Positions 28,299 to 63,919 of a stretch of 64,000 bases of DNA are shown here, piece by piece (position 1 is the first letter of the stretch; each line of letters starts with the position of its first letter). The notes beneath the pieces were generated by a model. It searched no databases. It was not told the DNA's origin and saw only the letters and a list, made by a program, of their open reading frames with translations. The stretch comes from [Muricauda] lutisoli (nom. illeg.) (GTDB taxonomy: Bacteria; Bacteroidota; Bacteroidia; Flavobacteriales; Flavobacteriaceae): NCBI RefSeq assembly GCF_017313105.1, contig NZ_JAFLND010000005.1, positions 1-64,000 of the forward strand. The letters are read 5' to 3'. Both the position numbers and the translations under genes were made by a program.

Positions 28299-28342
28299 AT
28301 GACCCAGATCATTTGATATACGCCCGATACACAGGATCTTAG
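28299..28342 (+). promoter_or_regulatory. Crp/Fnr-like site and promoter, WG-repeat gene
   Basis: ATGACCCAGATCAT (28299-28312), 22 bp, then GATCTTAG (28335-28342), a weak -7 element in the same register as eight other promoters in this window. Confidence 0.55.
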
Positions 28343-28365
28343 TAAGATGATAAAAAGCAATGGCC

Positions 28366-28986
28366 ATGAAAAAAACAACAACATTGATTGCTGCTTTTAT
28401 CTATATGGGCCTTAGCGCCCAACTTCCTGACAATTTGGATTTTGTGAGCCCGTTCCACGAAGGATTTGCAGCAATACAAAAAGAAAACAAGTGGGCTTTT
28501 GTTGATGAAACTGGAAACATCGCTATTGATTTTAGGGATGATCTTTATTGGAACACAGATGCCAACACATCTTACAATGATATCAGAGCCATGGCCTACC
28601 CTCAATTTTCGAGCGGTAGATGTGTGGTTCAAAAAATAGTGGATGGTATACCAATATTTGGATTTATTGATACTACTGGCAAATTGGTCATAGAACATCA
28701 ATTTTTGAATGTTGCTCCATTTGATAATGGGTGGACAACAGGTATTATTTTCGAAAAAGTGTTTAGAGGCAAAAATGAATTCAACCTGGATATTTATGAA
28801 TTTAAATTCCATGAAGTATTGATGGATGCAGACGGCAATATCAATGAGTTTCTAAACCGTAGGCATAATATTCAAATGACAAAAAGAAGGTATGAAATAC
28901 CAGAAATACGTTCTAAAATATTAAATGGAAACTTGATAGCCGTTGAAAAGGATAACCTCTGGCACATCAAAAAAATAGACCTCTAA
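28366..28986 (+). CDS. WG-repeat protein, exported
   Basis: A 206-residue protein with signal peptide MKKTTTLIAAFIYMGLSA and two WG-type repeats (EGFAAIQKENKWAFVDETGNI and GIPIFGFIDTTGKLVIEHQF, each shown in part). WG repeats are common in Bacteroidota exported proteins and usually have no assigned role. The C-terminal third is charged. An ATG two codons upstream (28360) is also possible. The promoter carries the TGA-N6-TCAT palindrome, so it is probably co-regulated with the genes to the right. A strong terminator follows. Confidence 0.8.
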   Translation: MKKTTTLIAAFIYMGLSAQLPDNLDFVSPFHEGFAAIQKENKWAFVDETGNIAIDFRDDLYWNTDANTSYNDIRAMAYPQFSSGRCVVQKIVDGIPIFGFIDTTGKLVIEHQFLNVAPFDNGWTTGIIFEKVFRGKNEFNLDIYEFKFHEVLMDADGNINEFLNRRHNIQMTKRRYEIPEIRSKILNGNLIAVEKDNLWHIKKIDL

Positions 28987-29021
28987 ATCAAATCGTAAAG
29001 CCTACAGGTCATTCAACAAGC

Positions 29022-29068
29022 GAACTGGATTGTCCACACTTTAGGGGATGGGCAATCCAGTTCTTTTT
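29022..29068. terminator. Terminator between convergent WG and GerW genes
   Basis: GAACTGGATTG (29022-29032) pairs with CAATCCAGTTC (29053-29063), followed by TTTTT. Confidence 0.88.
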
Positions 29069-29083
29069 AATTGTTGTCCTCGG

Positions 29084-29452
29084 TTAGGCAACAACTTCTT
29101 CTTTGTTTCTTTCAGAAACAATTTTTTCAATTAAATCGGGTACTTTTTCAAATGCGGCCGCTAATCCGTGGGTCTTGCCGGCTTCCAAAAATGAGATTTC
29201 ATCTCCTTTGGTCACCAAAAAGCCGATAGGTTGAATACCGATACCGGCACCTGCACCGGCTCCTTCCCCTTTTCTTGCTTTGCCTTCAACGCCTTCGCCT
29301 CCTCCGGAGCCAAATCCCATACCTACTTTAATTACAGGTACACACTTAAATTCACCCAACTGAAAGGGTTCACCAATAATGGTGTCTGTCTTGGCCTCTG
29401 ACTTGATAAAGTCAGTTACCTTGTTCAATAATTCTTCAAAATGTAAATCCAT
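29084..29452 (-). CDS. GerW family protein (YtfJ-like)
   Basis: A 122-residue member of the GerW/YtfJ family. In Bacillus, YtfJ is a sporulation protein needed for cortex-related germination, so a spore role is impossible here and the function is unknown. The Gly-rich centre (GMGFGSGGGEG, GAGAGAGIGIQPIGFLV) is typical. It lies 13 bp after a membrane protein resembling DUF2953/YtfI, the same pairing as in Bacillus, which suggests the two act together at the membrane. Co-transcribed on the minus strand from the site at 29974-30017. Confidence 0.87.
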   Translation of the reverse strand: MDLHFEELLNKVTDFIKSEAKTDTIIGEPFQLGEFKCVPVIKVGMGFGSGGGEGVEGKARKGEGAGAGAGIGIQPIGFLVTKGDEISFLEAGKTHGLAAAFEKVPDLIEKIVSERNKEEVVA

Positions 29453-29465
29453 GACCTTAAAATTT

Positions 29466-29960
29466 TTAATGATTAATAAATGTTTTTAGAATTCTGTAAG
29501 GCCTGTTTCGAATGTCCAACACCAATCTGTTATGGTCTTCAAAATTGATATGGAACGAGGCTACATACCGATTTAGCAATACAAAAACAGGATACATTTT
29601 TGCATTGGCCACGTAATCGCCGGTATCCATATCCAATGCAAACCGTTTAACCTCGAACGATTTGAGCAATTGGACCATCTTCCTTAACGTAATCCTCCTT
29701 TTGGGTTTGGTTCTCTTTTTTTTGGCCGGTTGTTTTGGTTTTGAAGATTTTGTCAAGGGATAGAAACAGCGTTCATAAAAAAGCACTTTTAACCGAACTC
29801 GTAAAAGTTCTTTCTCATCGGGTTCGAAACTCGCCTTTGCCAAGCCCTTTAAGCCTGCATAATACTTTCCTGTATCCGTGTCAATAAAAATTTGAATTGG
29901 AACAAATAACAGCCCAAGGGCAAGGAGCACAACTAATAATATCACAATGGTCAGTATCAT
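29466..29960 (-). CDS. Membrane-anchored protein, DUF2953-like
   Basis: A 164-residue protein with one N-terminal TM segment (about 2-22, ILTIVILLVVLLALGLLFV) followed by a beta-rich region, a very basic linker (KQPAKKKRTKPKRR, about 75-95) and a C-terminal beta domain. Placement before a GerW-family gene and the overall pattern resemble Bacillus YtfI (DUF2953). The sequence match is by eye and moderate. Function unknown. Its promoter has the TGA-N6-TCAT site. Confidence 0.7.
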   Translation of the reverse strand: MILTIVILLVVLLALGLLFVPIQIFIDTDTGKYYAGLKGLAKASFEPDEKELLRVRLKVLFYERCFYPLTKSSKPKQPAKKKRTKPKRRITLRKMVQLLKSFEVKRFALDMDTGDYVANAKMYPVFVLLNRYVASFHINFEDHNRLVLDIRNRPYRILKTFINH

Positions 29961-29973
29961 TAGCTTTTTGCCA

Positions 29974-30017
29974 CAAAGGAAATAGGACTATGTTTTATAT
30001 GCAATGACGCGGGTCAG
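29974..30017 (-). promoter_or_regulatory. Crp/Fnr-like site and promoter, DUF2953-like/gerW operon
   Basis: Minus strand: CTGACCCGCGTCAT (30017-30004), 22 bp, then TTCCTTTG (29981-29974), 13 nt before the start codon. Confidence 0.6.
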
Positions 30018-30073
30018 CATCGCATAAATAATTCGGTAAAAGTTGATAAGTTTTTTTCCGGTGCTTTTTTTGA

Positions 30074-30117
30074 CTGATCTAACTCATATTACAAATCGGT
30101 TTTTTATTGGTAATTTG
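30074..30117 (+). promoter_or_regulatory. Crp/Fnr-like site and promoter, exporter operon
   Basis: CTGATCTAACTCAT (30074-30087), 22 bp, then GTAATTTG (30110-30117), 23 nt before the adaptor start codon. Divergent from the site at 29974-30017. Confidence 0.6.
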
Positions 30118-30140
30118 ATATCTGTATTCATACCGGGCCA

Positions 30141-31226
30141 ATGAAGTATCCTTTAATATTCTGCATTGTTTTAATCAGTTTTTTCTCTTGTAGCGAGAGC
30201 AAAGAGAAAGTCTACCCGACTTTAATGCCTTTAACAGAATCCGTGTATGCCTCTGCCACAGTTCAGCCGGACAGTCTTTATCAAGCCTATTCCATAGTAA
30301 TCGGTATTTTGGACAAAACCTGGGTCGAAGAAGGTGATAAAGTAAAAAAAGGTGACCCAATCCTTCAAATCACGAACACTTCACCGGAATTAAATGCGGA
30401 GAACGCCAAATTATCGCTACAACTCGCTCGTGAAAATTATAATGGCAGAGCAGCTGTCCTTACTAGCATTCAAGATGAAATTCATGCTGCAACCCTAAAG
30501 TTCACAAATGATTCTGTTAATTACTTCAGACAAAAAAACCTCTGGGACCAAAATATTGGCTCTAAGGTGGAATACGATAACCGAAAACTCAATTATGAAC
30601 TCTCCAGAAACAACTTGGACCTGCTCAAAAGAAAGTATAGGCAAACAAAAAACGAGCTCGAGACCCAATTAAAGCAATCAGAAAACAATTACCGAACATC
30701 TTTGACCACTTCCGAAGACTTTACCATAAAAAGTAAGATAAACGGAACTGTTTATGCTATTTATAAAAATCCTGGGGAAATAGTAAATACCCAACAACCT
30801 GTGGCATCTATCGGTAAAAGTGAAGATTTTATAATTGAGTTATTGGTAGATGAAGTGGATATTGTAAAATTGAAAACGGGACAGCAGGTCTTCCTCACCC
30901 TGGATTCTTATAACTCAGAGGTTTTTGAGGCTACATTGGACAAAATATACCCGAGAAAAGATGAACGTTCGCAGACTTTTAAGGTAGAGGCCTTATTTAA
31001 AGACCCTCCCAGCACGCTGTACCCCGGACTATCTGGCGAAGGCAATATTGTTATTTCCAAAAAAGAGCAAACCCTCACCATCCCAAAAGAATACCTAATG
31101 GATGCATCCAAAGTGCTTACAGACGATGGTGAAATTGAGGTTACCCTAGGACTTCAAAATTTGGACAGGGTGGAAATTTTGAAGGGTATCGATGAAAACA
31201 CCGTAATTTATAAACCGGAGCAATGA
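30141..31226 (+). CDS. Periplasmic adaptor (HlyD/MacA family) lipoprotein
   Basis: A 361-residue membrane-fusion protein. The signal ends in lipobox FFSC (C17). A biotinyl-lipoyl-like half (about 45-80, WVEEGDKVKKGDPILQI) is followed by a coiled-coil hairpin (about 85-185), the second lipoyl half (KINGTVYAIYKNPGEIV) and a beta-barrel domain (about 230-330). With the next two genes it forms an ABC-driven exporter resembling DevBCA or a MacAB with separate permease and ATPase. An outer-membrane TolC partner is not encoded here. Its stop overlaps the permease start by 4 bp. Confidence 0.9.
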   Translation: MKYPLIFCIVLISFFSCSESKEKVYPTLMPLTESVYASATVQPDSLYQAYSIVIGILDKTWVEEGDKVKKGDPILQITNTSPELNAENAKLSLQLARENYNGRAAVLTSIQDEIHAATLKFTNDSVNYFRQKNLWDQNIGSKVEYDNRKLNYELSRNNLDLLKRKYRQTKNELETQLKQSENNYRTSLTTSEDFTIKSKINGTVYAIYKNPGEIVNTQQPVASIGKSEDFIIELLVDEVDIVKLKTGQQVFLTLDSYNSEVFEATLDKIYPRKDERSQTFKVEALFKDPPSTLYPGLSGEGNIVISKKEQTLTIPKEYLMDASKVLTDDGEIEVTLGLQNLDRVEILKGIDENTVIYKPEQ

Positions 31227-32485
31227 TCAATTGGAACGTGATATTGGGCATTGCCAAAACACATCTTATTACCAAGATGAAATCCACGGTAACCGCAACA
31301 CTTGGGGTTACTTTTGGAATTGGCGCCTATATCACCTTGGTAAGTTTTATGACAGGGCTCAACGGCATGTTAGATGATTTGGTACTGAACCAAACACCGC
31401 ACATTCACATGTACAACGAGATTCGTCCTTCCAAAACCCAACCCATTTCACGTTACCAAGAGTTCCAAGGTGCCATGAATTTTGTACACTCCATAAAACC
31501 CAAACAAAATCAAGAAAAAATTCATAACGCACTCCCTATTCTCGGCTATCTAAAAAAGCATCCCAATGTAAAAGGAGCGACCCCCCAACTAAGGGCCCAA
31601 ATCTTTTATCTATCCGGTTCCATAGAACTGGGTGGCAATCTAGTGGGAGTTGATATTATGGAGGAAGCTCGACTTTCCAACATTAAGGACAATATTGTGG
31701 AAGGCTCCGCAGAAGCCTTAAAAAACACCAATAACGGAATTTTACTAGGTGCGGGGCTAGCTGATAAAATGTCTCTTTCCATTGGGGACAGAGTTCAAAT
31801 AAGCACGGTAGCAGGGGATATTTTCCCTCTGAAAATTGTGGGCATCTATCAAAGTGGAATTGCGGAAATAGACAATGTACAAAGTTTTGCAAACCTAAAT
31901 ACCGTGCAGCGTATATTGGGCGAGTCCGAAAACTACGTGACCGACATCAACATCAAATTATTGAACATTGGAGAGTCCGAGTCCATGGCCCGTAATTTGG
32001 AAAAACAGTTCAATATAAAGGCAGTGGACATTAATGAGGCCAACGCCCAATTTGAAACGGGCTCCAACATAAGGAACCTTATTACCTATGCGGTTTCCAT
32101 AACCCTTCTTATAGTGGCGGGATTTGGTATTTACAATATTCTGAACATGCTCATTTATGAAAAAATGAAGGATATTGCCATATTAAAGGCCACAGGGTTC
32201 TCGGGTAAAGATGTGCAATACATTTTTATGGCACAGGCCATACTTATTGGAATTTTAGGAGGTCTTTTGGGTTTATTGATCGGGTTCGGTCTTTCTCACC
32301 TTATTGACAATACTCCCTTTGAAACAGATGCCTTGCCCACCATTACCACATACCCTGTAAATTACAACGGAACCTATTATTTTATTGGAATCGCCTTTGC
32401 ACTTATTTCAACTTTTGTTGCAGGATATTTACCCTCCAACAGAGCCAAAAAAATAGATCCTGTAAAAATTATTAGAGGAACTTAG
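31223..32485 (+). CDS. ABC transporter permease (FtsX/LolC-MacB type)
   Basis: A 420-residue permease with an N-terminal TM (about 20-45), a large periplasmic domain (about 46-285) and three C-terminal TM segments in an FtsX domain (about 290-415, including IYNILNMLIYEKMKDIAILKATG, shown as a known type VII ABC coupling region). Type VII ABC systems transfer mechanical force to periplasmic partners and do not move substrate through the membrane. Middle gene of the adaptor-permease-ATPase operon, overlapping the adaptor by 4 bp. Confidence 0.9.
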   Translation: MINWNVILGIAKTHLITKMKSTVTATLGVTFGIGAYITLVSFMTGLNGMLDDLVLNQTPHIHMYNEIRPSKTQPISRYQEFQGAMNFVHSIKPKQNQEKIHNALPILGYLKKHPNVKGATPQLRAQIFYLSGSIELGGNLVGVDIMEEARLSNIKDNIVEGSAEALKNTNNGILLGAGLADKMSLSIGDRVQISTVAGDIFPLKIVGIYQSGIAEIDNVQSFANLNTVQRILGESENYVTDINIKLLNIGESESMARNLEKQFNIKAVDINEANAQFETGSNIRNLITYAVSITLLIVAGFGIYNILNMLIYEKMKDIAILKATGFSGKDVQYIFMAQAILIGILGGLLGLLIGFGLSHLIDNTPFETDALPTITTYPVNYNGTYYFIGIAFALISTFVAGYLPSNRAKKIDPVKIIRGT

Positions 32486-32493
32486 CTGAGCGT

Positions 32494-33177
32494 ATGGACC
32501 GTGTTTTAGAAGCAAAAAATATCAATAAACATTTTCATAAGCCCAAGGATTTCCATGTGCTCAAAAATATTTCATTTGAGGTAAAGCAAGGGGAGTTTGC
32601 CTCCATTATGGGTAAATCAGGCTCTGGAAAATCCACCTTGTTGTACATTCTTTCCACTATGGATACCGACTATACCGGCGAACTATACCTCAATAACGAA
32701 CTTGTAACAGGCAAGTCACAAAGAGAACTGTCGCGAATCAGAAACAAAAACATTGGCTTTGTATTTCAGTTTCATTATTTGCTTTCTGAATTCAGTGTAT
32801 TGGAAAATGTAATGCTGCCTGCCAAGAAACTAGCGGAAAAGTCCCCCGAGGAAATTGAGAAGGATGCACACCGAAAACTTGAAATGTTACATATTGGCCA
32901 TTTGGCCGATCAGCGAGCCTCTAGAATTTCGGGAGGTGAAAAACAGCGAGTTGCCATCGCAAGGGCCCTGATCAACGATCCCACTATTTTAATGGGTGAT
33001 GAGCCTACAGGAAATCTGGACAGCCACAATTCTGAAAATGTGTTCAATATCTTTAAAAATTTAAAGGAAGAGCAAGGTCTATCGCTTTTAGTGGTGACCC
33101 ACGATAAAGATTTTGCCAAGCGGACGGACCGTATCATTGAAATGGAGGATGGTATAATAATCAGTCATGGAACTTGA
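32494..33177 (+). CDS. ABC transporter ATP-binding protein (LolD/MacB type)
   Basis: A 227-residue ATPase with Walker A GKSGSGKST (about 40-48), Q-loop in FVFQFHYLL, signature SGGEKQRVAIARAL, Walker B ILMGDEPTGNLD and the H-loop histidine in VVTHD. The sequence belongs to the group that powers LolCDE, MacB and DevBCA systems. It starts 8 bp after the permease, so it completes the three-gene exporter operon controlled from 30074-30117. The substrate is unknown. Confidence 0.92.
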   Translation: MDRVLEAKNINKHFHKPKDFHVLKNISFEVKQGEFASIMGKSGSGKSTLLYILSTMDTDYTGELYLNNELVTGKSQRELSRIRNKNIGFVFQFHYLLSEFSVLENVMLPAKKLAEKSPEEIEKDAHRKLEMLHIGHLADQRASRISGGEKQRVAIARALINDPTILMGDEPTGNLDSHNSENVFNIFKNLKEEQGLSLLVVTHDKDFAKRTDRIIEMEDGIIISHGT

Positions 33178-33182
33178 AATCA

Positions 33183-34169: not shown

Positions 34170-34170
34170 A

Positions 34171-35735: not shown

Positions 35736-35758
35736 ATTTTATCGCATTTCGGCCTAAT

Positions 35759-35802
35759 CAAAAATAAGTTTGTTGTGCTTACTTTCATATGACCAATATC
35801 AT
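35759..35802 (-). promoter_or_regulatory. Crp/Fnr-like site and promoter, mlaEFD
   Basis: Minus strand: ATGATATTGGTCAT (35802-35789), 22 bp, then TTATTTTG (35766-35759), 23 nt before the mlaE start. Confidence 0.65.
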
Positions 35803-35896
35803 TAAGAAGCTTTCAATCAATCAGATGCACAGCTAAGCAAAACCTATTTTCCAGCTATTTTTGTGCTCTTCATAAACCCTACACTGAGCATCAGAA

Positions 35897-35940
35897 ATGA
35901 CTCAGGTCATTTACTGAACTTTTCAATCACACTACCTTAC
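35897..35940 (+). promoter_or_regulatory. Crp/Fnr-like site and promoter, lipoprotein gene
   Basis: ATGACTCAGGTCAT (35897-35910), 22 bp, then TACCTTAC (35933-35940), 18 nt before ATG 35959. Confidence 0.6.
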
Positions 35941-35958
35941 CGAATAAAATGTAACACT

Positions 35959-36339: not shown

Positions 36340-36361
36340 ACATGCTTTGCTCTAACCATAG

Positions 36362-36405
36362 TTGAGTAATATCATAAAAATTAAGAAGCATTAGTTCTAC
36401 TTTTA
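36362..36405 (+). promoter_or_regulatory. Crp/Fnr-like site and promoter, TerB-like/deoCD operon
   Basis: TTGAGTAATATCAT (36362-36375), 22 bp, then TACTTTTA (36398-36405), 22 nt before the start codon. Confidence 0.6.
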
Positions 36406-36427: not shown

Positions 36428-36832
36428 ATGCTTAATTCTGAAAAAATAGGAAACGAATTCTATCAAAGCCTTGGGAAATTATTTTATGCCGTGGCCATGG
36501 CCGATAATAATGTCCGACCCAAAGAAGTTAAAAGATTAAGGGAATATGTGCGGCAACATTGGTTGGATGTAGACAAATTTGAAGATGAATTCCATACCGA
36601 TGCTGCCTATCAAATCGAGATTGTTTTTGATTGGTTGGAAGGCGAGGAAAAAGACGGGGAAGAATACTTTAAAGAGTTTAAGGAGTTCTACATGGAACAC
36701 CATGAAAAATTTCCTGAAACCATCAAAAAGCTGATTGTAGAAACTGCTGAATCCATCGCAAGTTCCTTTGCTGGAAAAAATAGATCGGAGATGTTGACTA
36801 TATTTAAGCTCAAACAGCTCTTTAACCACTAA
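36428..36832 (+). CDS. TerB-like protein
   Basis: A 134-residue all-helical, acidic protein resembling the TerB fold: FYQSLGKLFYAVAMADNNVRPKEV (in part) near the N-terminus and IVETAESIASSFAGKNRSE later. TerB-type proteins are linked to tellurite and general stress responses and bind metal through acidic residues. The assignment is by pattern. It starts an operon with deoC, two bases downstream, which is an unusual partner. Confidence 0.7.
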   Translation: MLNSEKIGNEFYQSLGKLFYAVAMADNNVRPKEVKRLREYVRQHWLDVDKFEDEFHTDAAYQIEIVFDWLEGEEKDGEEYFKEFKEFYMEHHEKFPETIKKLIVETAESIASSFAGKNRSEMLTIFKLKQLFNH

Positions 36833-36833
36833 T

Positions 36834-37484
36834 ATGGGATTAGCAGACTTTATTGACCATACCAATTTAAGACCCTCCGCCAATATTGCGGATATTCAAA
36901 AATTATGTGAAGAGGCTAAAACCTATGGTTTTTATGCCGTATGTGTAAATGGTTGTAATGTGCCCATCGCTAAGGAAACATTAAAAGACACTGCGGTAAA
37001 AGTAGCTGCCGTAATTGGTTTTCCATTGGGCGCCATGTCCACCAAAGCAAAGGTTTTTGAGGCCGTGGACTGCATTGAAAATGGTGCTGAAGAAATTGAC
37101 ATGGTCATCAATATCGGGTGGATGAAATCAGAAATGTACGATGCTGTTCGAGATGAGATCGAGGCTATTAAACGGGCCATAGGGGATAAAATACTTAAGG
37201 TAATCATTGAAACATGCTACCTTACTGATGCAGAAAAAGAAAAAGCTTGCGATCTGGCGATCGAGGCCCATGCCGATTTTGTTAAAACTTCCACTGGATT
37301 TGGAACCGGTGGTGCCACTTTTGAGGATGTAAAACTGATGAAAAGTATCGTTGGTGAAAAAGCAAAAATAAAAGCTTCCGGTGGAGTAAAGGATAGGGAA
37401 ACCGCTATACAATATATTGAGCTCGGTGTATCAAGAATAGGCACATCCTCTGGTCCCAAACTATTAAAACAAGAAGCCCCATGA
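36834..37484 (+). CDS. deoC: Deoxyribose-phosphate aldolase
   Basis: Splits 2-deoxyribose-5-phosphate into acetaldehyde and glyceraldehyde-3-phosphate in deoxynucleoside breakdown. The 216-residue TIM barrel carries the Schiff-base lysine in [13 protein letters not shown] and the second active lysine in IKASGGVKD. Length is normal. It overlaps deoD by 4 bp and follows the TerB-like gene by one base, so all three are probably made from the promoter at 36362-36405. Confidence 0.95.
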
Positions 37485-38185
37485 GTACCCATATAGAAGC
37501 TAAACCCGGTGAAATTGCCGAAACCGTTCTAATGCCAGGAGACCCATTAAGGGCCAAATGGATTGCGGAAACATTTCTGGAAAATCCAGTATGTTATAAC
37601 AAAATCCGTGGTATGTTGGGCTATACCGGCACTTATAAAGGAAAAAGAGTCTCCGTTCAGGGCAGTGGAATGGGAATGCCATCCGCAATGATCTATTTTC
37701 ACGAACTCATCAACGATTATGGAGTTAAAAACATTATCCGAGTGGGGTCCGCAGGATCGTACCAAGAAGATGTAAAGCTCAATGATGTGGTATTGGCCAT
37801 GTCAGCTTCCACCACCTCAGGCATCAATAACTCAAGGTTCATCAACTCGGACTATTCTCCGACCGCCGATTTTGACCTTTTTATAAAAGCCGTTGATTAT
37901 GCCCAAAAAAACAACATTCCCATAAAGGCGGGAAATGTGCTTTCATCTGATGAGTTTTATGGTGATGACCCCGAAGAATACAAACTCTGGGCCCAATATG
38001 GTGTTCTTTGCGTCGAAATGGAAACCGCAGGGCTTTATACCGTTGCGGCAAAATACAATGTAAAGGCTTTGACTATTTTAACCATTTCCGATTCCTTGGT
38101 AACAGATGAAAGGCTTTCTGCCCACGCACGGGAAACAACTTTTAAGGACATGGTCCGAATTGCGCTCGCGGCTGCAATATCTTAA
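37481..38185 (+). CDS. deoD: Purine-nucleoside phosphorylase, DeoD type
   Basis: Cleaves purine (deoxy)nucleosides with phosphate, releasing base and (deoxy)ribose-1-phosphate. The 234-residue trimeric or hexameric-type enzyme shows [30 protein letters not shown] and the substrate-binding VEMETAGLY. Coupled by a 4-bp overlap to deoC, it would feed deoxyribose phosphate to the aldolase. Convergent with nrdJ, with a 9-bp gap between ends. Confidence 0.95.
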
Positions 38186-38194: not shown

Positions 38195-39913
38195 TCAACA
38201 ATTGGCGCTTTTGTTTAGATGGCAGGCCTGCAAAACCTGATCGGCCTTGCTTCCATCCCTATAAATGGTTATGCCCTTGAGCCCGTACTTCCAGGCCGTC
38301 ATGTAAATATCCGAAACGGTTTCTTTGGGGGTGCTTTTTATTAGGTTAATCGTTTTGGATACGGCATTGTCCGTATATTTTTGGAAAGCCTGTTGGTGTT
38401 TTAAGTGGTATTCCCATGGAATCTCCAAACTTGTTTCGAACACTTTTTTTACCTTTTTAGGTATATGCTCCAACTGTTGTATACTTCCGGTATTGAGCAC
38501 TTCATTTTTCACCTGATCTGTCCATAATCCTAATGCTTGCATTTTACCCACAAAAATCGGATTCACTTCCATTTGCGTTTGATTATCCAATATACCAACA
38601 CGTTTGTAAGCCAAGGCATATAAGGGCTCAATGGAATACGAAGTATCCGCAATTACCGAAATACTCCCTGTTGGTGCTATACTGTTGCAAGTAGCATTTC
38701 GCATGTGTTTGTTTGGATGGAAAGTGCTTTTTTTCCAATTGGGAAAATCGCCCCGTTCCTTGGCCAATTCAGCTGAGGCCATATAACTCTTTGATTGAAC
38801 AAATTGCATGATTCTTTCTCCCAGTAAAATGGCCTTTTCAGAGGCATAAGGTATATTGAGCAATGCCAACATTTCCGCCCAGCCCATTACACCAAGCCCC
38901 ACTTTTCTATTGTTTTTTGTTATAGCTGCAATTTGCGGAAGTAAATAATGATTTATAGATACAATATTATCCAAAAACCTAATGGCCGACGCAATGGCAC
39001 GTTCAAGCTTATTCCAATCCACTGCCGTCCCTTCCGGTTCTTTTAATGTGACCATTTTGGATAGATTGATAGAGCCAAGGTTACAACTTTCATATTCGAA
39101 CAGTGGAACTTCGCCACAGGGGTTGGTACTTTGGATTTTACCAATTTCGGCCACCGTATTATGTTTGTTTAACGTATCCAAGAAAATAAGGCCTGGGTCT
39201 CCCGTTGCCCAAGCTTGTGAAACTATTTGGTCCCAAAGCTTCTTGGCTTTGATGGTTTTTGCAATCTTTTTTGTTCTCGGGTTCATCAACTTCCAATCTC
39301 TTTCATGTTGTACAGTCTCCATAAAATCATCCGTAATGCCCACGGATAGATTAAAATTATGCAAAGTATCTCCTGCTGTTTTTGCAAGGATGAACTCCTC
39401 GATATCTGGATGGTCCACATTTAATATACCCATGTTTGCCCCTCTCCGTTTTCCTCCTTGTCTTATATGTTCCGTTGCAGTATCATAAATCTTGATGAAG
39501 GCCATAGGGCCCGATGATACCCCTCCAGAGGATGAGACCATGTCGCCTTTAGGTCGGAGTTGAGAAAAGTTATATCCCGTTCCTCCCCCGCTCTGATGAA
39601 TCATAGCTGTGTTTTTTAAGGTGGTAAATATGCTGCTCAGGCTATCTTCAACGGGTAGAACAAAGCAAGCGCTCAGCTGCCCATTGGGCAATCCTGCATT
39701 CATCAATGTTGGGGAGTTCGGTAAAAAATAGAGATGGGTCAATAGGTCATTAAACCTATCCTCCCACTTTTCTTTATCCTCATTTTCAGCACTTGCCACA
39801 TATTTGGCTACCCTACTAAAAAGTTGCTCCGGAGTTTCAATTACCTCATCTTCGGAATTCTTTAGCAAATACCGGGCATTAAGTAATTGTAGGGCGTTTT
39901 TGGAAAGTTTCAT
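38195..39913 (-). CDS. nrdJ: Adenosylcobalamin-dependent ribonucleotide reductase (class II)
   Basis: Makes deoxyribonucleotides using an adenosylcobalamin-derived radical and does not need oxygen. The 572 residues start at ATG 39913 (MKLSKNALQLL), which overlaps the preceding gene by 4 bp. Active-site cysteines are C83 (LSACF), C266 in NPCGE (thiyl radical site, with E268) and C277, matching the Thermotoga NrdJ set. The enzyme is short: there is no zinc-ribbon domain, and only two C-terminal cysteines (QACHLNKSANC) could act as shuttle. It is the last gene of an operon with flavin reductase, M20 peptidase and DUF1611. Confidence 0.92.
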   Translation of the reverse strand: MKLSKNALQLLNARYLLKNSEDEVIETPEQLFSRVAKYVASAENEDKEKWEDRFNDLLTHLYFLPNSPTLMNAGLPNGQLSACFVLPVEDSLSSIFTTLKNTAMIHQSGGGTGYNFSQLRPKGDMVSSSGGVSSGPMAFIKIYDTATEHIRQGGKRRGANMGILNVDHPDIEEFILAKTAGDTLHNFNLSVGITDDFMETVQHERDWKLMNPRTKKIAKTIKAKKLWDQIVSQAWATGDPGLIFLDTLNKHNTVAEIGKIQSTNPCGEVPLFEYESCNLGSINLSKMVTLKEPEGTAVDWNKLERAIASAIRFLDNIVSINHYLLPQIAAITKNNRKVGLGVMGWAEMLALLNIPYASEKAILLGERIMQFVQSKSYMASAELAKERGDFPNWKKSTFHPNKHMRNATCNSIAPTGSISVIADTSYSIEPLYALAYKRVGILDNQTQMEVNPIFVGKMQALGLWTDQVKNEVLNTGSIQQLEHIPKKVKKVFETSLEIPWEYHLKHQQAFQKYTDNAVSKTINLIKSTPKETVSDIYMTAWKYGLKGITIYRDGSKADQVLQACHLNKSANC

Positions 39914-40938
39914 TTTGTTTTGAGTGACATCCCTGTTTTCTCTGTCAAAATTTCTTTTAATGCTTTGGTAGTGGTGGAGTCTATCAAGTTTAAAGCTCTT
40001 ACACCACACAACTCCTTCACCATTCTTGCTCCCGCCAAAGTATTGGAAGCAACCCCAGTGACAATATCGGGAACCAGTTCAAAAGCCTTCATCAAACCAT
40101 GAACTGCATAAGGGTCCGAAGCACTCAAAATGGTGCATTTAATATGTTCCCTAAGCGCATTTATGGCAACATCCCCATTATAAGGTTCCAAAGGGGACGC
40201 TCCAATTTCTATAATGGCAACATCGGCATTTTCCGTTGCAATTCTACTGAGCATTTGATCAAGTTTTTCCTTGTACACCTCGGTGGGGCAAATGGACGAA
40301 GGAAGTCCCACATCCACAAAATCCATTATCTTGTCGGCTCCAACATCCTTGAAGGCCAAAATATCCTTATATCGACCAGCTCCTGTAAGTTTTGCACCCA
40401 CCACTTTATAGCCTGCCTGCTTAAAAATGTTGGTTACTATTCGGGCAGAGGTCGTTTTACCGGCGGACATGGAGGTACCCACAAACAGGATTACCGGAGT
40501 ATTGAATGGAACTTTGGGGATATTCTCAACAAAATCTTCCATGGTTACCTTTTTGCCTTCCCTAACCGCATGACCTTTGTAAATAATCTTGATCATTTTA
40601 GGAATAAACATGGACTTGGACGTTAGTTTTCCCAAAAGCCCGGCACCTGTTAGTACCGTCATTTTTAAATCGTCCGTTACGTTTCTCCAACTCCCTGTCG
40701 CTTCCAGAGTTGCATAACGTTCTCCCAATACGCCTACAATAAACTCACCAGCGATAACTCCTCTCATCCTACCGTTTGGGAGTTCTATCTTCAAGCTCTC
40801 CCCTCCTTCGTTCAAAATTTCACAAACGACATAATCACCAGTTTGCCATTGGTCTTGTGGCAACTCCTTTACTTGAAATCCTTTTTCCGCCAAATCGGAA
40901 ATTCGGGTCAACGACGCGTAAATATATTTGTGGTCCAT
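39910..40938 (-). CDS. DUF1611 P-loop protein
   Basis: A 342-residue protein of the DUF1611 family with a P-loop GTSMSAGKTT (154-163) in its C-terminal half and a beta-rich N-terminal domain. Some relatives (DgcN) take part in acylated D-amino-acid metabolism, and others sit beside dipeptide epimerases; the exact reaction here is unknown. It lies 10 bp after an M20 peptidase and overlaps nrdJ by 4 bp (ATGA), so it is translated with both. The pairing with a peptidase suggests amino-acid or dipeptide processing. Confidence 0.85.
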   Translation of the reverse strand: MDHKYIYASLTRISDLAEKGFQVKELPQDQWQTGDYVVCEILNEGGESLKIELPNGRMRGVIAGEFIVGVLGERYATLEATGSWRNVTDDLKMTVLTGAGLLGKLTSKSMFIPKMIKIIYKGHAVREGKKVTMEDFVENIPKVPFNTPVILFVGTSMSAGKTTSARIVTNIFKQAGYKVVGAKLTGAGRYKDILAFKDVGADKIMDFVDVGLPSSICPTEVYKEKLDQMLSRIATENADVAIIEIGASPLEPYNGDVAINALREHIKCTILSASDPYAVHGLMKAFELVPDIVTGVASNTLAGARMVKELCGVRALNLIDSTTTKALKEILTEKTGMSLKTK

Positions 40939-42749: not shown

Positions 42750-42793
42750 TAAAAATACAATTATGGATCAGGGTCTCCTATGACCTAAATCAG
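42750..42793 (-). promoter_or_regulatory. Crp/Fnr-like site and promoter, nrdJ operon
   Basis: Minus strand: CTGATTTAGGTCAT (42793-42780), 22 bp, then TATTTTTA (42757-42750), 20 nt before the flavin reductase start. Confidence 0.65.
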
Positions 42794-42858: not shown

Positions 42859-42902
42859 ATGACCTAAATCATTTTAAATGATGGTATTGTAACCTAGATT
42901 TG
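42859..42902 (+). promoter_or_regulatory. Crp/Fnr-like site and promoter, ftsH
   Basis: ATGACCTAAATCAT (42859-42872), 22 bp, then a perfect -7 TAGATTTG (42895-42902). No TTG lies at -33; the palindrome is centred near -41.5. Confidence 0.7.
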
Positions 42903-42955: not shown

Positions 42956-44989
42956 ATGTCTACCGAATCCGAATATAAAGGCAATAATGCCAATGGGAAC
43001 AACAAGAACGAAAAACCCAAACCTCCCAAAGGAGGCAGTAATCTAAGTTGGGTATATTGGATAGTGTTGATTTTCCTAATAGTTTTTCCATTTTTCACCA
43101 ATACCATTGGAACGTCCAAAGAAATTGCCTGGTCTAAATTCGAGGATGACCTTTTGGCCAAAAATGCTATTGAAAAGATTGTTGTCATCAACAAAGAGGT
43201 TGCGCAGATCTATGTCAAAAAAAGTGTTTTGGACGATCCCGAATTCAAAAATGACAATGATGGGCTATTCTCCTCTAACTCGGGACCCCAATATTATATC
43301 ACCATTGGTTCAGTAGAAAGTTTCGAGAATAAATTACAACGTGCACAGGAAGATGCAGGCATTTCTGAAAAAATTGATGTTAGATATGAAAACCGGACAG
43401 ATATTGTCACCATTTTATCTTGGCTATTGCCTCTAGCCTTTTTCATTTTTATCTGGGTATTCATGTTTCGCAGAATAGGCGGTGGAAAAGGGGGTAGCTC
43501 TATGTTCAATTTTGGTAAGTCCACGCCAAGACTTACGGAAAAAGGCACCAAAAGCAAAGTGAGCTTTAAAGATATTGCCGGTCTTAAAGAAGCAAAGACC
43601 GAGGTAATGGAAGTTGTGGACTTCTTAAAGAACCCGGAGGATTACACCCGATTAGGTGCAAAAATCCCCAAAGGCGTTTTACTTGTTGGTCCGCCAGGAA
43701 CCGGAAAAACCTTAATGGCCAAAGCTGTTGCCGGCGAGGCCCAAGTGCCTTTTTTCTCCATGTCGGGTTCCGAGTTCGTGGAGATGTTCGTAGGTGTGGG
43801 CGCATCACGTGTTCGTGACCTTTTCAAAAAAGCAAAGGCAAAAGCACCAAGCATCATTTTTATTGATGAGATTGATGCCGTTGGCCGCTCCCGAGGCAAA
43901 ATAAATGCCTTCCAAGCGAATGATGAACGCGAAAGCACTTTGAACCAATTACTTACCGAATTGGATGGATTTGGCGATAATACCGGGGTTATTGTTTTGG
44001 CTGCAACCAACCGTCCCGATGTATTGGACAAAGCTCTTTTACGCCCTGGAAGGTTTGATCGCCATATTTATTTGGAACTCCCCAACCAAACGGAACGGGC
44101 AGAGATCTTTAAGGTACACGTTCGTTCCTTAAAACTTTCAAAAAATGTTGACATCGATGTTCTGGCCAAATTAAGTCCGGGATTCTCTGGGGCAGACATT
44201 GCCAATATCTGTAACGAGGCGGCTTTGATCGCAGCACGAGAAAAGAAAGACGAAGTGGAACAAGAGGATTTCATGGCTGCTAGAGATCGGGTTATTGTTG
44301 GAATGGAACGGAAAAGCAAGATTATCTCCCCCAAGGAAAAGGAAATCGTTGCTTATCATGAAGCCGGCCATGCCGTTGCCAGTTGGCACTTAAAACATGT
44401 GGATTCCCTTGTAAAGGTCTCCATTATCCCAAGAGGTAAATCACTCGGTGCTGCATGGTATTTACCGGAAGAACGTCAAATCGTGACCAAATCACAATTT
44501 ATTGACCAAATGTGTGCTTCCCTTGGTGGACGGGCTGCAGAGGAAATTATTTTCAACGAAATCTCATCCGGAGCACTGGACGACCTTGAAAAAGTGACCA
44601 AACAAGCCTATACCATGGTCTCCTACTATGGTTTGGATGAAGAGATAGGACCCATCAGCTTTTACGATTCCACTGGCGATAACGAACGCTTACTTGGAAA
44701 ACCTTATAGCGAGGAGATGGCCAAACAAATTGATCATGAAGTACATAATTTGATTATGTCCGCCTATGAACGAACCAAAAAATTATTGCTAGCACATAAA
44801 AAAGAACTGGAAAATTTGGCACAATTGCTTCTAAAAAAAGAGGTTGTGGATAAAGATGACCTTGAAGAGCTTTTGGGCAAGCGAGGTGAAAAAATATTGG
44901 GTAAGGAAACTGAAAAGCCCAGCAATCCGAACTTGCTGATAAATTATTTCAATATTCTAAACAATAAATATAGAGAACCGTTCAATTAA
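42956..44989 (+). CDS. ftsH: ATP-dependent zinc metalloprotease FtsH
   Basis: Membrane-bound AAA protease that degrades damaged membrane proteins and some regulators. The 677 residues have TM1 (about 31-50), a periplasmic domain, TM2 (about 155-172), an AAA module with Walker A GPPGTGKT (about 245) and Walker [12 protein letters not shown], the SRH region ATNRPDVLD, and the zinc motif HEAGH (about 468). The N-terminus is Asn/Lys rich. Since the genome may hold another ftsH, this could be a stress-inducible copy: its promoter belongs to the TGA-N6-TCAT set. Confidence 0.95.
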
Positions 44990-55367: not shown

Positions 55368-55371
55368 ACAA

Positions 55372-57634: not shown

Positions 57635-57752
57635 TTCGCAAAAATAACAATTACAAAGTCCCCTACAAGAAGGTTCTAATTTCATTAACAGATTTTTTTA
57701 GTTGGAACTAGATGGACAGAAATTGCTACATTAGTGCAAAACCAAACCAAAC

Positions 57753-58205: not shown

Positions 58206-58210
58206 AATCA

Positions 58211-58468
58211 ATGGAAAAACTTTTGGACAGAAAAATTAAGATTATTTGGGATTTTAGAGGACCAAGTGCAGCACAAACCGCTGAGCACTACCTAAAACAC
58301 CTTAAGGAATTTGTAGAGGTCGAGGAACTCAAGTACGACCTGGGGGGCACAGAACATTTTAGCCCTACACACAGCATTGCCTATCTGGTGGTTGCCGAAT
58401 TTGAGCTCAAAGAGGTTCGAAGTATTCTTAAACCTCATCGGGGACAGGTATACAATCAAGAAATTTAA
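58211..58468 (+). CDS. Small conserved hypothetical protein
   Basis: An 85-residue soluble protein without a recognised domain. It starts MEKLLDRKIKIIWDFRGP and has an alpha/beta composition. It lies 5 bp after the SRPBCC gene and 10 bp before the beta-lactamase-like gene, so it is probably part of a three-gene transcript. Real coding is supported by its tight spacing and normal codon use. Confidence 0.72.
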   Translation: MEKLLDRKIKIIWDFRGPSAAQTAEHYLKHLKEFVEVEELKYDLGGTEHFSPTHSIAYLVVAEFELKEVRSILKPHRGQVYNQEI

Positions 58469-58478
58469 TTTTTTGCCT

Positions 58479-59612: not shown

Positions 59613-59637
59613 AAAAGCACCGCAGAACGGTGCTTTT
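59613..59637. terminator. Terminator between convergent genes
   Basis: AAAAGCACCG-CAGAA-CGGTGCTTTT, a perfect 10-bp stem just after the beta-lactamase-like stop codon. Works in both directions. Confidence 0.9.
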
Positions 59638-59661
59638 CAACTCAAAACAAACAACACTTAA

Positions 59662-60180
59662 TTAGTTGGGCATAACCACATCCTCAATAATATGGATCAC
59701 TCCATTTGAGGCTTCTACGTCAGTCTTGGAGATTTTGCTCCAACTTCCATTGGCATCCTTCAAATAAATGCCATCATCCTTTTTCATAGCAGTTAATTTC
59801 CCACCGTTCAAGGTTGTAAGTTCTGCTTTTCCATTTCCTTTTTCTAGGGCGGCCGCCACATCAGAGGCCATTAATTCTCCCGAAACCACGTGATAGGTTA
59901 GAATAGCTGATAGTTTTTCCTTGTTTTCAGGTTGTAGCAAGGAGTTCAACGTTGCAGCATCAATTTTGGCAAATCCTGAATTTACAGGAGCAAATACGGT
60001 AAAAGGTCCATCGCCTTTCAAGGCTCCTACCAAATCGGCTGCTTTTAGCGCTGTAACCAATGTAGAAAAGTCATCTACTGATACAGCAATATCCACAATA
60101 TCTTGGGATTTTTGAGCATTGGTTTGTTGAGTGCCCATCAATAAGATTACGGCAACTAGGGCAAAGACTAATTTTTTCAT
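59662..60180 (-). CDS. Fasciclin-domain protein, exported
   Basis: A 172-residue protein with signal peptide (MKKLVFALVAVILLMGTQQTNA) and one FAS1 domain (about 30-170): FSTLVTALKAADLVGALKGDGPFTVFAP (in part), the H1/H2-type signatures ILTYHVVSGEL and GVIHIIEDVVMPN. FAS1 proteins mediate adhesion or matrix binding. It is divergent from the sigma-factor gene 118 bp away, and may be a target of that sigma factor; inference only. Confidence 0.9.
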   Translation of the reverse strand: MKKLVFALVAVILLMGTQQTNAQKSQDIVDIAVSVDDFSTLVTALKAADLVGALKGDGPFTVFAPVNSGFAKIDAATLNSLLQPENKEKLSAILTYHVVSGELMASDVAAALEKGNGKAELTTLNGGKLTAMKKDDGIYLKDANGSWSKISKTDVEASNGVIHIIEDVVMPN

Positions 60181-60298
60181 TTTTTCTGATTTAAATTTTT
60201 AATGATTATTTTTTTAAAGCGCTTTCTACTATTATTTACACATGGTTTTGCCCATTGGATGAAGACCGTGGATTTTTATCATATCTTTAACAATAACA

Positions 60299-60862
60299 AT
60301 GAAGAAAAGTTTTGACGACAAAGAGGCAATCACCCGATTGATATCCGGTGATAACGATGCGCTCTTCCAACTTTACGATAAATATTCCGGTGCGCTCTAC
60401 GGGGTCATCCTCCGTATGTGCAGGGATCGAACAAAGGCCGAGGATCTTTTACAGGAAACTTTCGTTAAAATTTGGAGAAGTATCGACTCTTATGATTCGT
60501 CAAAAGGGAGGTTTTACACCTGGGCCTATCGAATAGCAAGGAATACCACCTTAAATTCCATGCGCTCCAAAGAAAAGCTCATCCAAACAGATGATTTCCG
60601 TGTATATGATAGTAAGGAAGCAAATGAAGAAGTACCCGATTACACCGAATTGAAGGGTTCCATAAAAACACTGGAACCCCATCACCAAGAAGCAATAACC
60701 TTAGTGTATTATAGGGGCTATACCCACAAACAGGCGCACAAAGCCATGGGGGTACCTCTGGGAACCTTTAAATCCTATGTGAGACAAGCACTTAAACAAC
60801 TCAGGAAAACCTACACCAAGAAGTTAGTTTATATTTGGATCTTTTTAGAATTAATGGCATGA
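60299..60862 (+). CDS. ECF-type RNA polymerase sigma factor
   Basis: A 187-residue sigma-70 family factor with only regions 2 (about 20-90, LYGVILRMCRDRTKAEDLLQETF in part) and 4 (about 125-175, HKQAHKAMGVPLGTFKSYVRQALKQL in part). Its stop overlaps the start of an anti-sigma gene by 4 bp (ATGA), the normal layout for an autoregulated ECF pair. The signal it responds to is unknown. Confidence 0.92.
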   Translation: MKKSFDDKEAITRLISGDNDALFQLYDKYSGALYGVILRMCRDRTKAEDLLQETFVKIWRSIDSYDSSKGRFYTWAYRIARNTTLNSMRSKEKLIQTDDFRVYDSKEANEEVPDYTELKGSIKTLEPHHQEAITLVYYRGYTHKQAHKAMGVPLGTFKSYVRQALKQLRKTYTKKLVYIWIFLELMA

Positions 60863-61605
60863 TGGACAAGAAAAAGATATTGGACGAAGGACTTCTGGAG
60901 CTTTATCTTACCGGTGAGCTCTCTGAAGAATTGACCAATGCTGTTGAGGAAGTACTTGAGAACGACAAATCCCTCAAGGAGCATTTTGATGCGTTGGAAT
61001 CCGATTTTGAACAAATGGGCATGGAACAGGCCATTGTTCCTCCAAATGTCGTAAAGTCAAGATTGAAAAATATCGTGGGCCAAAAAAAAACAAATTGGTT
61101 GCCATTGGGCATCGCGGCAAGTTTTGCCCTTGTTTTTGGTTTGAGCAGCTTTTGGTTGTATGAAAAATGGCAAGATGCCGAACAAAACTTAAATACATTA
61201 CAAATCCAGACCAGTGAGTTGGAGCGAAAGGTGAACAACTTGGAATCGGATTTCAGGCTAACTTCCAACCGCTTGGAGAGTATTAACAATCCCGATGTTA
61301 CCCCTTTGGTACTCTATGGTAACAACAAAGCGCCCAATGGCAAGGTCATAGCCTACATTAACCATAAAAGTCAGATGGTACTCGTTAACCCTAAAGGGTT
61401 GCCACGTTTGCCCAACGACAAAACCTATCAAATGTGGAGTGATGTCAATGGAGAAATGATCAATATGGGCGTTGTACCCACAGATAAAGAATTGGTTACT
61501 TTAAAATATATTGAAAATGCGGAATCGTTGAACCTGACCATTGAACCTGCTGGTGGCAGCGAACATCCAACCGTAGAGGAACTGGTTTCCAATATCATCA
61601 TATAA
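60859..61605 (+). CDS. Anti-sigma factor, RskA type
   Basis: A 248-residue membrane anti-sigma factor. A cytoplasmic N-terminal region (about 1-75, LELYLTGELSEELTNAVEEVL in part) would bind the sigma factor. One TM follows (about 77-97, WLPLGIAASFALVFGLSSFW), then a short coiled coil and an RskA C-terminal domain (about 140-248, YQMWSDVNGEMINMGVVP). It is coupled to the upstream sigma gene by a 4-bp overlap. An upstream in-frame TTG at 60835 was not used. Confidence 0.88.
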   Translation: MMDKKKILDEGLLELYLTGELSEELTNAVEEVLENDKSLKEHFDALESDFEQMGMEQAIVPPNVVKSRLKNIVGQKKTNWLPLGIAASFALVFGLSSFWLYEKWQDAEQNLNTLQIQTSELERKVNNLESDFRLTSNRLESINNPDVTPLVLYGNNKAPNGKVIAYINHKSQMVLVNPKGLPRLPNDKTYQMWSDVNGEMINMGVVPTDKELVTLKYIENAESLNLTIEPAGGSEHPTVEELVSNIII

Positions 61606-61699
61606 CCCTTAAAAATAAGTGGGACATTGCCTGCTGGAATAAAATTCCGTTAAAACAATATCCCACTTCCGGACTAGAATCCATAAAAATCAAGAAACC

Positions 61700-63316
61700 T
61701 CATCCAACCATTTCTGGTTGTATATTCCAGTTTTCGTTTGCCAAGAGTACTTGATCAAAGTCAATTCCTTCAATCGGTTTTAAAGCTTGAGTAGCCGGGT
61801 CCCATTCAATTTTCCTTCCCAACTTCCAGGACAATCCCGCCATGTGAGCAGAAATAGCCTCTTCAAACCCTTCCTTGATACCACAGCTTACTTTTCCACC
61901 GTTTTTGATAACGCTCAACCACTCGCGCATGTGCAAGAAGGTAGAATCTACACGGACCCCATCAATATAGGTCCACATCAATCCTTTATCGGCAAAATAT
62001 TGCGAAGTGGCCGAGGAGACGGCATCCGTTGCATTGGCGGCTGGGTCATATTGATAGATAGGCACATTGGGCTTCATTTTTTCCGCTTCCAACATTTCGG
62101 CGTATCGGGTGGATGCACCATCGGGCCAAACTGTTAATCTGTTGCCCAATTCCATAGTGGCATCGTGCCCCATTAAAATGGTAGGTCTGCTGAACCCATT
62201 CCCCAAAGTGGCACTGTAACAAAAGGTCATACCATTTTCTTTGCCTTTAGCTTGGCTACTTCCTGTGCTGTAATCAGGAAATTCCATGTTCACCTGAATC
62301 ACATCGGGCACATTCCGTCCGTCGTTATGCGTGTAAATCCCACCTGAAGAACTTACAGATGCAGGAATTCCCATATTGAGCACGCAGTTCAAACGATCAT
62401 AATCATGGGACAAAAGATCTCCTGAAAGACCGGAACCATAGGACCACCATTTACGCCATCTGAAAAAATGGTTTTTATTGAATGGGACCTTGGGCGCAGA
62501 ACCCAAAAATTGCTCCCAATCTATGGTTTCGGGACTAGCTTTTTCGTGGATGTCATAATTCCAAGCACCGTTGTCATCGTTCCTGTTGGTATTTGTTTGA
62601 ATCAACGAAACATGACCCAGAGTTCCTTTTTCCACAATATCACGAGCGGTACTAAAACTTAAGGTTTGCCTATGCTGGTGACCCACTGCGAACACTGCAT
62701 CCGAATTCTCTGCAGCTTCGCGCAAAGTATAGGTTTCCTCCACGGTATGTGTCATCGGTTTTTCCACATACACGTGTACATTATTGTTCAAAGCCTCAAT
62801 GGACATTGGTGCGTGCCAGTGGTCGGGAGTAGCAATAACTACCGCATCCACTTCGCCGCTTTGGATCATATCCTTATAAGTAAGGTATCTCTTTATCTGG
62901 TTATCATCCGTAGAAAAGGAGTTGATGAACTTTTCAGCGCGGACATCGAACACATCACATATCCCCACTAATTTTACATTGAGCCGTTCCTGGGCCTCGA
63001 AATCCTCCAATCTCTTATTGTTAGGGTCTTCTTGAGCAGCCAACCGCATTTCTTCTTTCCATTCATCGGTTGCAAAACCCAAAGCTCTGGTGAGTTGCTC
63101 CCCGCGAATACCAAAACCGATTACCCCAATTCGGACAGGGTCTCCACCTATTCCGGGAACTGCAGGTGGCAATGATGGCTTTATATTAAGTTGTTCCAAT
63201 ATTTCCGAGCGCTTATTTCTTGATCCAACAGCAGTTGCCGCTCCAGCCCACCATACTGCTCCAAGTACTGGCAAGCCTCCCAATCCTATTAAAAGGTCTC
63301 TTCTAGTCCATTTCAT
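61700..63316 (-). CDS. Gfo/Idh/MocA family oxidoreductase, Tat-exported
   Basis: A 538-residue NAD(P)-dependent oxidoreductase. The N-terminus has a twin-arginine signal (TRRDLLIGLGGLPVLG). A Rossmann domain follows with GVIGFGIRGEQL (about 64-75), the catalytic-region motif EKPMTH, and the C-terminal substrate domain. Exported members often act on sugars or sugar derivatives, but this substrate is unknown. Its ATG overlaps the doxX-like stop by 4 bp, so the two form an operon. Confidence 0.88.
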   Translation of the reverse strand: MKWTRRDLLIGLGGLPVLGAVWWAGAATAVGSRNKRSEILEQLNIKPSLPPAVPGIGGDPVRIGVIGFGIRGEQLTRALGFATDEWKEEMRLAAQEDPNNKRLEDFEAQERLNVKLVGICDVFDVRAEKFINSFSTDDNQIKRYLTYKDMIQSGEVDAVVIATPDHWHAPMSIEALNNNVHVYVEKPMTHTVEETYTLREAAENSDAVFAVGHQHRQTLSFSTARDIVEKGTLGHVSLIQTNTNRNDDNGAWNYDIHEKASPETIDWEQFLGSAPKVPFNKNHFFRWRKWWSYGSGLSGDLLSHDYDRLNCVLNMGIPASVSSSGGIYTHNDGRNVPDVIQVNMEFPDYSTGSSQAKGKENGMTFCYSATLGNGFSRPTILMGHDATMELGNRLTVWPDGASTRYAEMLEAEKMKPNVPIYQYDPAANATDAVSSATSQYFADKGLMWTYIDGVRVDSTFLHMREWLSVIKNGGKVSCGIKEGFEEAISAHMAGLSWKLGRKIEWDPATQALKPIEGIDFDQVLLANENWNIQPEMVG

Positions 63317-63792
63317 TGTTCCTGAGTTTTAAGTTTGTTCTTTCTGAGATAATCCAGGCCAAAGTAGCTTCCTGTAGGTAACTGATAAATCACGATCATG
63401 GCCACTAGTTCGATCAAGTTTTTATTGACCAGCCAATAGTTGCCTTCCACATTCATTTGTGTTAAGCCTGGAAATGGTGGATGGGCCAAAAAATATAGTG
63501 CTAAAAGGCCAACTCCCACAATGGCACCGATACGTTCAAAAATACCAAGGGTAAAGGTTACCCCGACCACCATAAGCGCAATAATGTTCAGTGTATCCAC
63601 CCAACCTATGGTTGCGTCGCCTATCAAAATGGTAAAAAACCATTCAAAAGGTCCTTGTGCGGTTGCCAAATATCCAAACGATGTCCACTCGGGATTGTAC
63701 ATCTTCACCACACCTTCAAATAAAAAGTGCCACCCTATAAATATGCGAAGCAGGGTAACACTTGCTTTCAGTTTATTCTGATTTTGGTTCAT
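63313..63792 (-). CDS. DoxX family membrane protein
   Basis: A 159-residue inner-membrane protein with four TM segments in the DoxX arrangement (RIFIGWHFLFEGVVKMYNPEW in part, near 15-40). DoxX-like proteins are linked to quinone or redox chemistry, but the function is not settled. A longer frame to 63900 exists. The predicted start of transcription near 63871 lies inside it, so ATG 63792 is favoured. It leads an operon with the Gfo/Idh/MocA gene. Confidence 0.85.
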   Translation of the reverse strand: MNQNQNKLKASVTLLRIFIGWHFLFEGVVKMYNPEWTSFGYLATAQGPFEWFFTILIGDATIGWVDTLNIIALMVVGVTFTLGIFERIGAIVGVGLLALYFLAHPPFPGLTQMNVEGNYWLVNKNLIELVAMIVIYQLPTGSYFGLDYLRKNKLKTQEQ

Positions 63793-63875
63793 AGTTGCTA
63801 TAGTTAATTTTAATTTTCCTTGTTTCCTGTAGGTGACAAAAGAAGATTTGGAGATCTGTTCCTTTTTTGAAATAC

Positions 63876-63919
63876 TAAAAGTACCTAACCGTAACTCCAA
63901 ATAATATGACCAATGTCAA
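63876..63919 (-). promoter_or_regulatory. Crp/Fnr-like site and promoter, doxX operon
   Basis: Minus strand: TTGACATTGGTCAT (63919-63906), 22 bp, then TACTTTTA (63883-63876), the same -7 sequence as the TerB-like operon. Confidence 0.6.

Follow-up and report, generated by a model that had tools for sequence, protein, structure and literature searches.

A 64,000-nucleotide stretch of the [Muricauda] lutisoli genome (C5:1-64000 of 3.42 Mb; hereafter called the window) carries nine promoters that appear to share one palindrome with the half-site spacing of Crp/Fnr proteins. This raises the question of whether these promoters answer to a common type of regulator and, if so, which protein of the cell reads them. 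A first-pass annotation had proposed that every palindrome, oriented with transcription, ends in TCAT, and that exactly 22 bp separate it from an 8-bp element resembling TAnnTTTG. All nine palindromes are found where they had been placed, with the TCAT end and the 22-bp gap in every case (Table 1). The quoted 8-mers are likewise correct at eight sites, but the element at site 35789 had been misread as TTATTTTG; the real sequence, TATTTTTG, is a better match. The usual -33 TTG, described as absent where checked, is indeed missing from most of these promoters, although a TTG overlaps that place at two of the nine (28299 and 30004).

Table 1. Predicted class II operators in the window, each separated by N22 from its -7 element, and the ribonucleotide reductase gene encoded there. 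Scores are from the site model described in the text.
Feature	Palindrome	-7 element	Span	Strand	Gene(s) 3' of the site, or annotation	Site-model score
Site 28299	ATGACCCAGATCAT (28299-28312)	GATCTTAG (28335-28342; weak, weakest among the nine)	28299..28342	+	WG-repeat gene 28360-28986	-10.8 (RR-CRP-like)
Site 30004	CTGACCCGCGTCAT (30004-30017)	TTCCTTTG (29974-29981)	29974..30017	-	29466-29960 and YtfJ-family gene 29084-29452	-10.3
Site 30074	CTGATCTAACTCAT (30074-30087)	GTAATTTG (30110-30117)	30074..30117	+	HlyD/MacB-FtsX/ABC export operon 30141-33177	-7.0
Site 35789	ATGATATTGGTCAT (35789-35802)	TATTTTTG (35759-35766)	35759..35802	-	MlaE/ABC/MlaD operon 35735-33183	
Site 35897	ATGACTCAGGTCAT (35897-35910)	TACCTTAC (35933-35940)	35897..35940	+	Predicted 126-aa lipoprotein, start ~35957	-9.6
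Site 36362	TTGAGTAATATCAT (36362-36375)	TACTTTTA (36398-36405)	36362..36405	+	TerB-like gene, DeoC-family aldolase, nucleoside phosphorylase (36428-38185)	
Site 42780	CTGATTTAGGTCAT (42780-42793)	TATTTTTA (42750-42757)	42750..42793	-	Flavin reductase/M20 peptidase/P-loop protein/NrdJ operon (42729-38195)	
Site 42859	ATGACCTAAATCAT (42859-42872)	TAGATTTG (42895-42902)	42859..42902	+	FtsH-family protease 42956-44989	-9.8
Site 63906	TTGACATTGGTCAT (63906-63919)	TACTTTTA (63876-63883)	63876..63919	-	DoxX-family gene and Gfo/Idh/MocA oxidoreductase (63900-61700)	-2.4
NrdJ			38195..40009	-	Class II adenosylcobalamin-dependent ribonucleotide reductase (TIGR02504, 695 bits versus cut-off 400)	

Across the entire window, coding DNA included, TGA-N6-TCA occurs 28 times compared to 23.7 expected, an ordinary raw count because most of these palindromes lie in coding DNA. 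Within the 6.8 kb outside genes, 11 are present where ~2.3 are expected. At a gap of 22, nine of these 11 are followed by a match to TAnnTTTG at four or more of its six fixed positions, and they are exactly the nine listed in Table 1; the other gaps from 14 to 30 yield zero to four matches. In the mapped flavobacterium F. psychrophilum, the -7 box occupies -12 to -5 (PMC9723704). Converted with this position, rather than with transcription starts of the present strain, the palindromes are centered near -41.5, consistent with the class II placement that had been suggested for them.

The annotation had also held that such a register is not random, and had recommended a genome-wide scan. The scan supports this view. 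TGA-N6-TCAT-N22-TA occurs 94 times in the genome versus 27 times for a reversed control, and the longer pattern TGA-N6-TCAT-N22-TAnnTT occurs 58 times versus once. When gaps of 7 to 36 were scanned with the exact TAnnTTTG element, 23 of the 55 matches fell at gap 22, with three at gap 21, four at gap 23, and about one at each of the others. The excess lies 5' of genes: at least 58 of the 72 sites whose genomic context was examined (from a total of 79) are clearly intergenic and precede a gene, typically with 15 to 35 bp between the -7 box and the ATG. Only six of the 72 were classed as coding, and for one of these a spurious ORF is the probable reason.

The genes located 3' of these sites include many universal stress proteins, thioredoxin, Hsp20, a hibernation-factor-like protein, and a Dps-like protein, as well as CBS proteins, pyruvate phosphate dikinases, a HemN-type radical-SAM protein, neighbors of cbb3 oxidase, and TerB-like proteins. 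Some of these names derive from Pfam or NCBIfam matches, whereas the Dps-like, thioredoxin, and TerB-like designations come from reading N-terminal sequences. Besides the window, sites are clustered at C1:1474-1483k, C3:271-297k, and C4:134-157k.

No gene with a Crp/Fnr helix-turn-helix (HTH) was found in the window, as the first reading had noted. Of all Crp-HTH matches in the genome, the top three fall inside the C1, C3, and C4 site clusters. The C3 protein (C3:271.7k) is a 229-aa Fnr-like protein encoded beside cbb3 oxidase and heme genes, and the sites of its cluster share the N22 register. Its recognition helix carries an E..IR pattern and its cysteines are at positions 5, 8, 54, and 107, with no cysteine at the place of the third N-terminal one in E. 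coli FNR; its best NCBIfam match is Fnr, at 113 bits and hence below the cut-off of 228. The proteins at C4:151.6k and C1:1478.8k are REC-cNMP-HTH_Crp fusions (here called RR-CRP), each adjoined by a PAS histidine kinase gene. The proposal of a Crp/Fnr-type regulator is therefore upheld by genes within the other site clusters, but the RR-CRP fusion is a better candidate for the window block than the plain Fnr protein. A fourth, weaker Crp-HTH match above the cut-off (C3:90.3k; L034:1042-1689) lies outside the clusters, beside a SulP-type transporter. The E..IR pattern is missing from its recognition helix, TSRVVVSRLLKKL, which makes the protein an unlikely reader of N22 sites.

The RR-CRPs combine a cNMP-like domain with a Crp HTH bearing the recognition Glu and Arg, as in the Crp/Fnr superfamily, and the two TGA/TCA half-sites at N6 spacing are those of a Crp/Fnr class II regulon. 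Glu and Arg are kept in all 81 RR-CRPs that have residues at these positions. Among 82 aligned RR-CRPs, the receiver residues D9, D52, and K104 are present in every one, with T or S at position 82, and the invariant Asp52 is the phosphoacceptor expected of a response regulator. The N-terminal receiver departs from the FNR domain layout, standing where FNR carries its Fe-S cysteines, and the cAMP-pocket residues E72, R82, and S83 of E. coli CRP are replaced, unlike in a cAMP-responsive CRP. Of 80 RR-CRP loci from named Bacteroidota genomes, ranging from Flavobacteriaceae to Hymenobacter and Spirosoma, 70 have a histidine kinase gene no more than 2.5 kb away, directly upstream where inspected.

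At the three promoters compared, the site is conserved in other genera, in agreement with a second check that had been recommended. The N22 site is kept in 29 of 30 orthologous loci at the MlaE promoter, in 24 of 30 at the promoter of the TerB-like gene, and in seven of nine orthologues of the flavin reductase promoter that precedes the NrdJ operon; other gaps give zero to three. Because these orthologues were drawn from RR-CRP-positive genomes, the counts speak for conservation rather than for dependence on RR-CRP. However, in several relatives the RR-CRP gene has TerB-like or MlaE genes in its vicinity, which supports the link to RR-CRP.

To compare the candidate regulators, we used 151 genomes of the same family, one per genus, in which regulators were called at E 1e-50, a threshold at which divergent copies could go unnoticed. 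These genomes contain the spaced motif 3627 times and the control 739 times. Genomes with neither regulator have 2.4 sites per Mb versus 1.3 in the control (median excess 1.5 per genome), whereas genomes with RR-CRP but without Fnr have many. Site number rises with regulator copy number: in a linear regression over the 151 genomes (R2 0.59), with kinship handled only by taking one genome per genus, each RR-CRP copy is associated with 16.0 additional sites (bootstrap 95% interval 13.8-18.4) and Fnr with 10.3 (6.7-14.2). The register is also evident beside the regulator genes themselves. Loci around RR-CRP in Fnr-less genomes and six named relatives contain 149 sites at gap 22 versus ~6 at other gaps, and the 80 named RR-CRP loci contain 71 versus a background of ~5. 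Loci around Fnr in genomes lacking RR-CRP contain 31 versus ~3.

An alternative is that the window sites belong to the plain Fnr-like protein, which would make them part of a classical Fnr/FixK low-oxygen regulon. The neighborhood of that protein, with cbb3 oxidase, heme genes, and a site cluster in identical register, would suit this alternative, as would the E..IR pattern common to its recognition helix and that of RR-CRP, and the class II ribonucleotide reductase within the window. However, Fnr-associated sites have a different signature, with an A/T-rich interior (TGAyAaatrTCA) and A4 and T4 flanks. A site model trained on loci of each regulator in single-regulator genomes (cross-validated AUC 0.90) classes every one of the nine window sites as RR-CRP-like, seven strongly and 36362 and 63906 less clearly; 63906, which lies 20 kb away from the window block, has the least clear assignment. 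On the strength of this model, and given the many sites in genomes that have RR-CRP without Fnr, we judge Fnr unlikely to be the main regulator of the window, although the Fnr-like protein probably takes part through cross-regulation.

It is less probable still that the palindromes are repressor operators, or serve dual roles, rather than activator sites. Crp/Fnr proteins are capable of repression, but repressor sites usually vary in position, whereas the identical register at -41.5 and the mostly absent -33 TTG suit class II activation. An artefact of chance, or of the composition of AT-rich promoters, could claim only the near-expected raw palindrome count of the window. We reject it as highly improbable, given the 58-to-1 excess over the reversed pattern, the spike at a single gap, the orthologous conservation, and the almost complete lack of excess in genomes without the regulators.

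We therefore favor the reading that the nine palindromes are predicted class II operators and that the window block is for the most part under RR-CRP control, to which we assign a probability of about 0.8 from sequence comparison. At a class II position, the dimer of a Crp-type protein makes contact with RNA polymerase and can stand in for the -33 interaction. The nine palindromes would be bound at -41.5 by activators of the Crp/Fnr superfamily. Their promoters would be served by the main Bacteroidota sigma factor and, for the most part, have no -33 TTG. The neighboring PAS histidine kinase would phosphorylate RR-CRP and thereby switch it on; modification of the receiver aspartate would probably do what cAMP does in CRP, and the dimer, once phosphorylated, would contact RNA polymerase in substitution for the -33 element. 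The predicted output is a survival program of universal stress proteins, Hsp20, ribosome hibernation factor, Dps-like protein, B12-dependent ribonucleotide reductase, export, Mla-type lipid transport, and FtsH. The site model leaves the C1 and C4 RR-CRPs indistinguishable. We infer that the C4 protein is the one acting on the window block only because the sites of the C4 cluster most resemble those of the window (TGAyCtrggTCA).

Low oxygen or envelope stress had been proposed as the signal of this regulon; both are conjectural, and low oxygen is plausible. The presence of NrdJ, whose start codon is uncertain and whose long ORF overlaps the neighboring gene, supports oxygen-independent dNTP synthesis, and together with the stress proteins it fits energy or oxygen limitation. 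The kinase beside the C4 RR-CRP (L044:1597-4176) has a LOV-like PAS domain with the reactive Cys (GRKCNFLQ), whose best match is to blue-light receptors (E 4e-35), plus GAF and PAS domains. With a LOV-type domain in one kinase, light or redox is therefore also possible. LOV kinases adjoin RR-CRP in several relatives too (L066, L067, L068, L073, L207). The PAS domain of the C1 kinase is closest to the heme-PAS domains of FixL and DosP (E 3.5e-12) with the histidine aligned, but heme binding is only putative because many PAS domains share this histidine and the kinases of relatives rarely have it. Light or redox for the C4 kinase and oxygen for the C1 kinase are thus guesses. In the FixL-FixJ-FixK system of rhizobia, a PAS kinase, a receiver, and a Crp-type activator similarly control a micro-oxic gene set; FixJ and FixK are separate proteins, whereas RR-CRP unites the receiver and the Crp DNA-binding domain in one.

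Other well-known systems also share part of this arrangement. The FNR, FixK, and ANR class II regulons of Proteobacteria have the same TGA-N6-TCA spacing, -41.5 center, and Crp-type HTH with Glu and Arg, and they include cbb3, Usp, and Hsp20 targets. In contrast, the main candidate here is a kinase-controlled response-regulator fusion acting on Bacteroidota-type promoters with the -7 element TAnnTTTG. E. coli CRP class II promoters are alike in position and in the TGA...TCA core, and RR-CRP has equivalents of E181 and R185. The targets also resemble those of DosR/DosS in Mycobacterium tuberculosis, with Usp, Hsp20, hibernation factor, class II ribonucleotide reductase, phosphoribosyltransferase, and erythromycin-esterase-like protein in common, although DosR is a response regulator of the NarL/LuxR type whose DNA-binding domain and motif are unrelated. 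In the C4 island (L043:16918-20000), phosphoribosyltransferase and erythromycin-esterase-like genes adjoin Usp genes, an arrangement resembling the mycobacterial DosR regulon.

In the open-access literature covered, we found no description of the RR-CRP fusion or of the TGA-N6-TCAT-N22 motif, which is weak evidence of absence. A predicted stress-response network run by RR-CRP, widespread in Bacteroidota, is apparently undescribed so far, and to our knowledge activation at promoters of the primary sigma factor in this phylum is poorly understood. We speculate, at somewhat less than even odds, that RR-CRPs are Bacteroidota-wide, kinase-controlled CRP activators that run a DosR-like dormancy or survival regulon via one promoter architecture. 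LOV, FixL-like PAS, and other PAS sensors, along with Fnr, would feed the same operators, such that oxygen, redox, or light might converge on class II sites of promoters lacking the -33 element. The predicted rule TGA-N6-TCAT-N22-TAnnTT flags dozens of target promoters per genome throughout the family, and the analysis names their likely activators. It also suggests a route by which CRP can be turned from a small-molecule sensor into a two-component output, and the N22 spacing is directly testable in tractable flavobacteria.

Several minor features accompany the sites. In relatives, at the MlaE loci (L252-L281) and at other RR-CRP sites, a second TGA-N6-TCA often lies 22 to 23 bp further upstream, which corresponds to positions near -41.5 and -64. 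Such tandem sites accompany 50 of 304 primary sites versus ~1 for each other offset, a count that is non-independent in that many are orthologous MlaE promoters; none were seen in the [Muricauda] lutisoli genome. One operator, TGATCTGGGTCA, occurs identically three times in the C4 island (C4:140728, 143100, and 151195; L043 and L044), and its reverse complement, TGACCCAGATCA, is present at window position 28300. Two more intergenic TGA-N6-TCA palindromes of the window, at 28087-28098 and 2854-2865, are out of register with any -7 box. Finally, an inverted repeat at 28107-28145 (AAAACCGTTAAGC...GCTTAACGGTTTTTT) resembles an intrinsic terminator, as judged by reading only.
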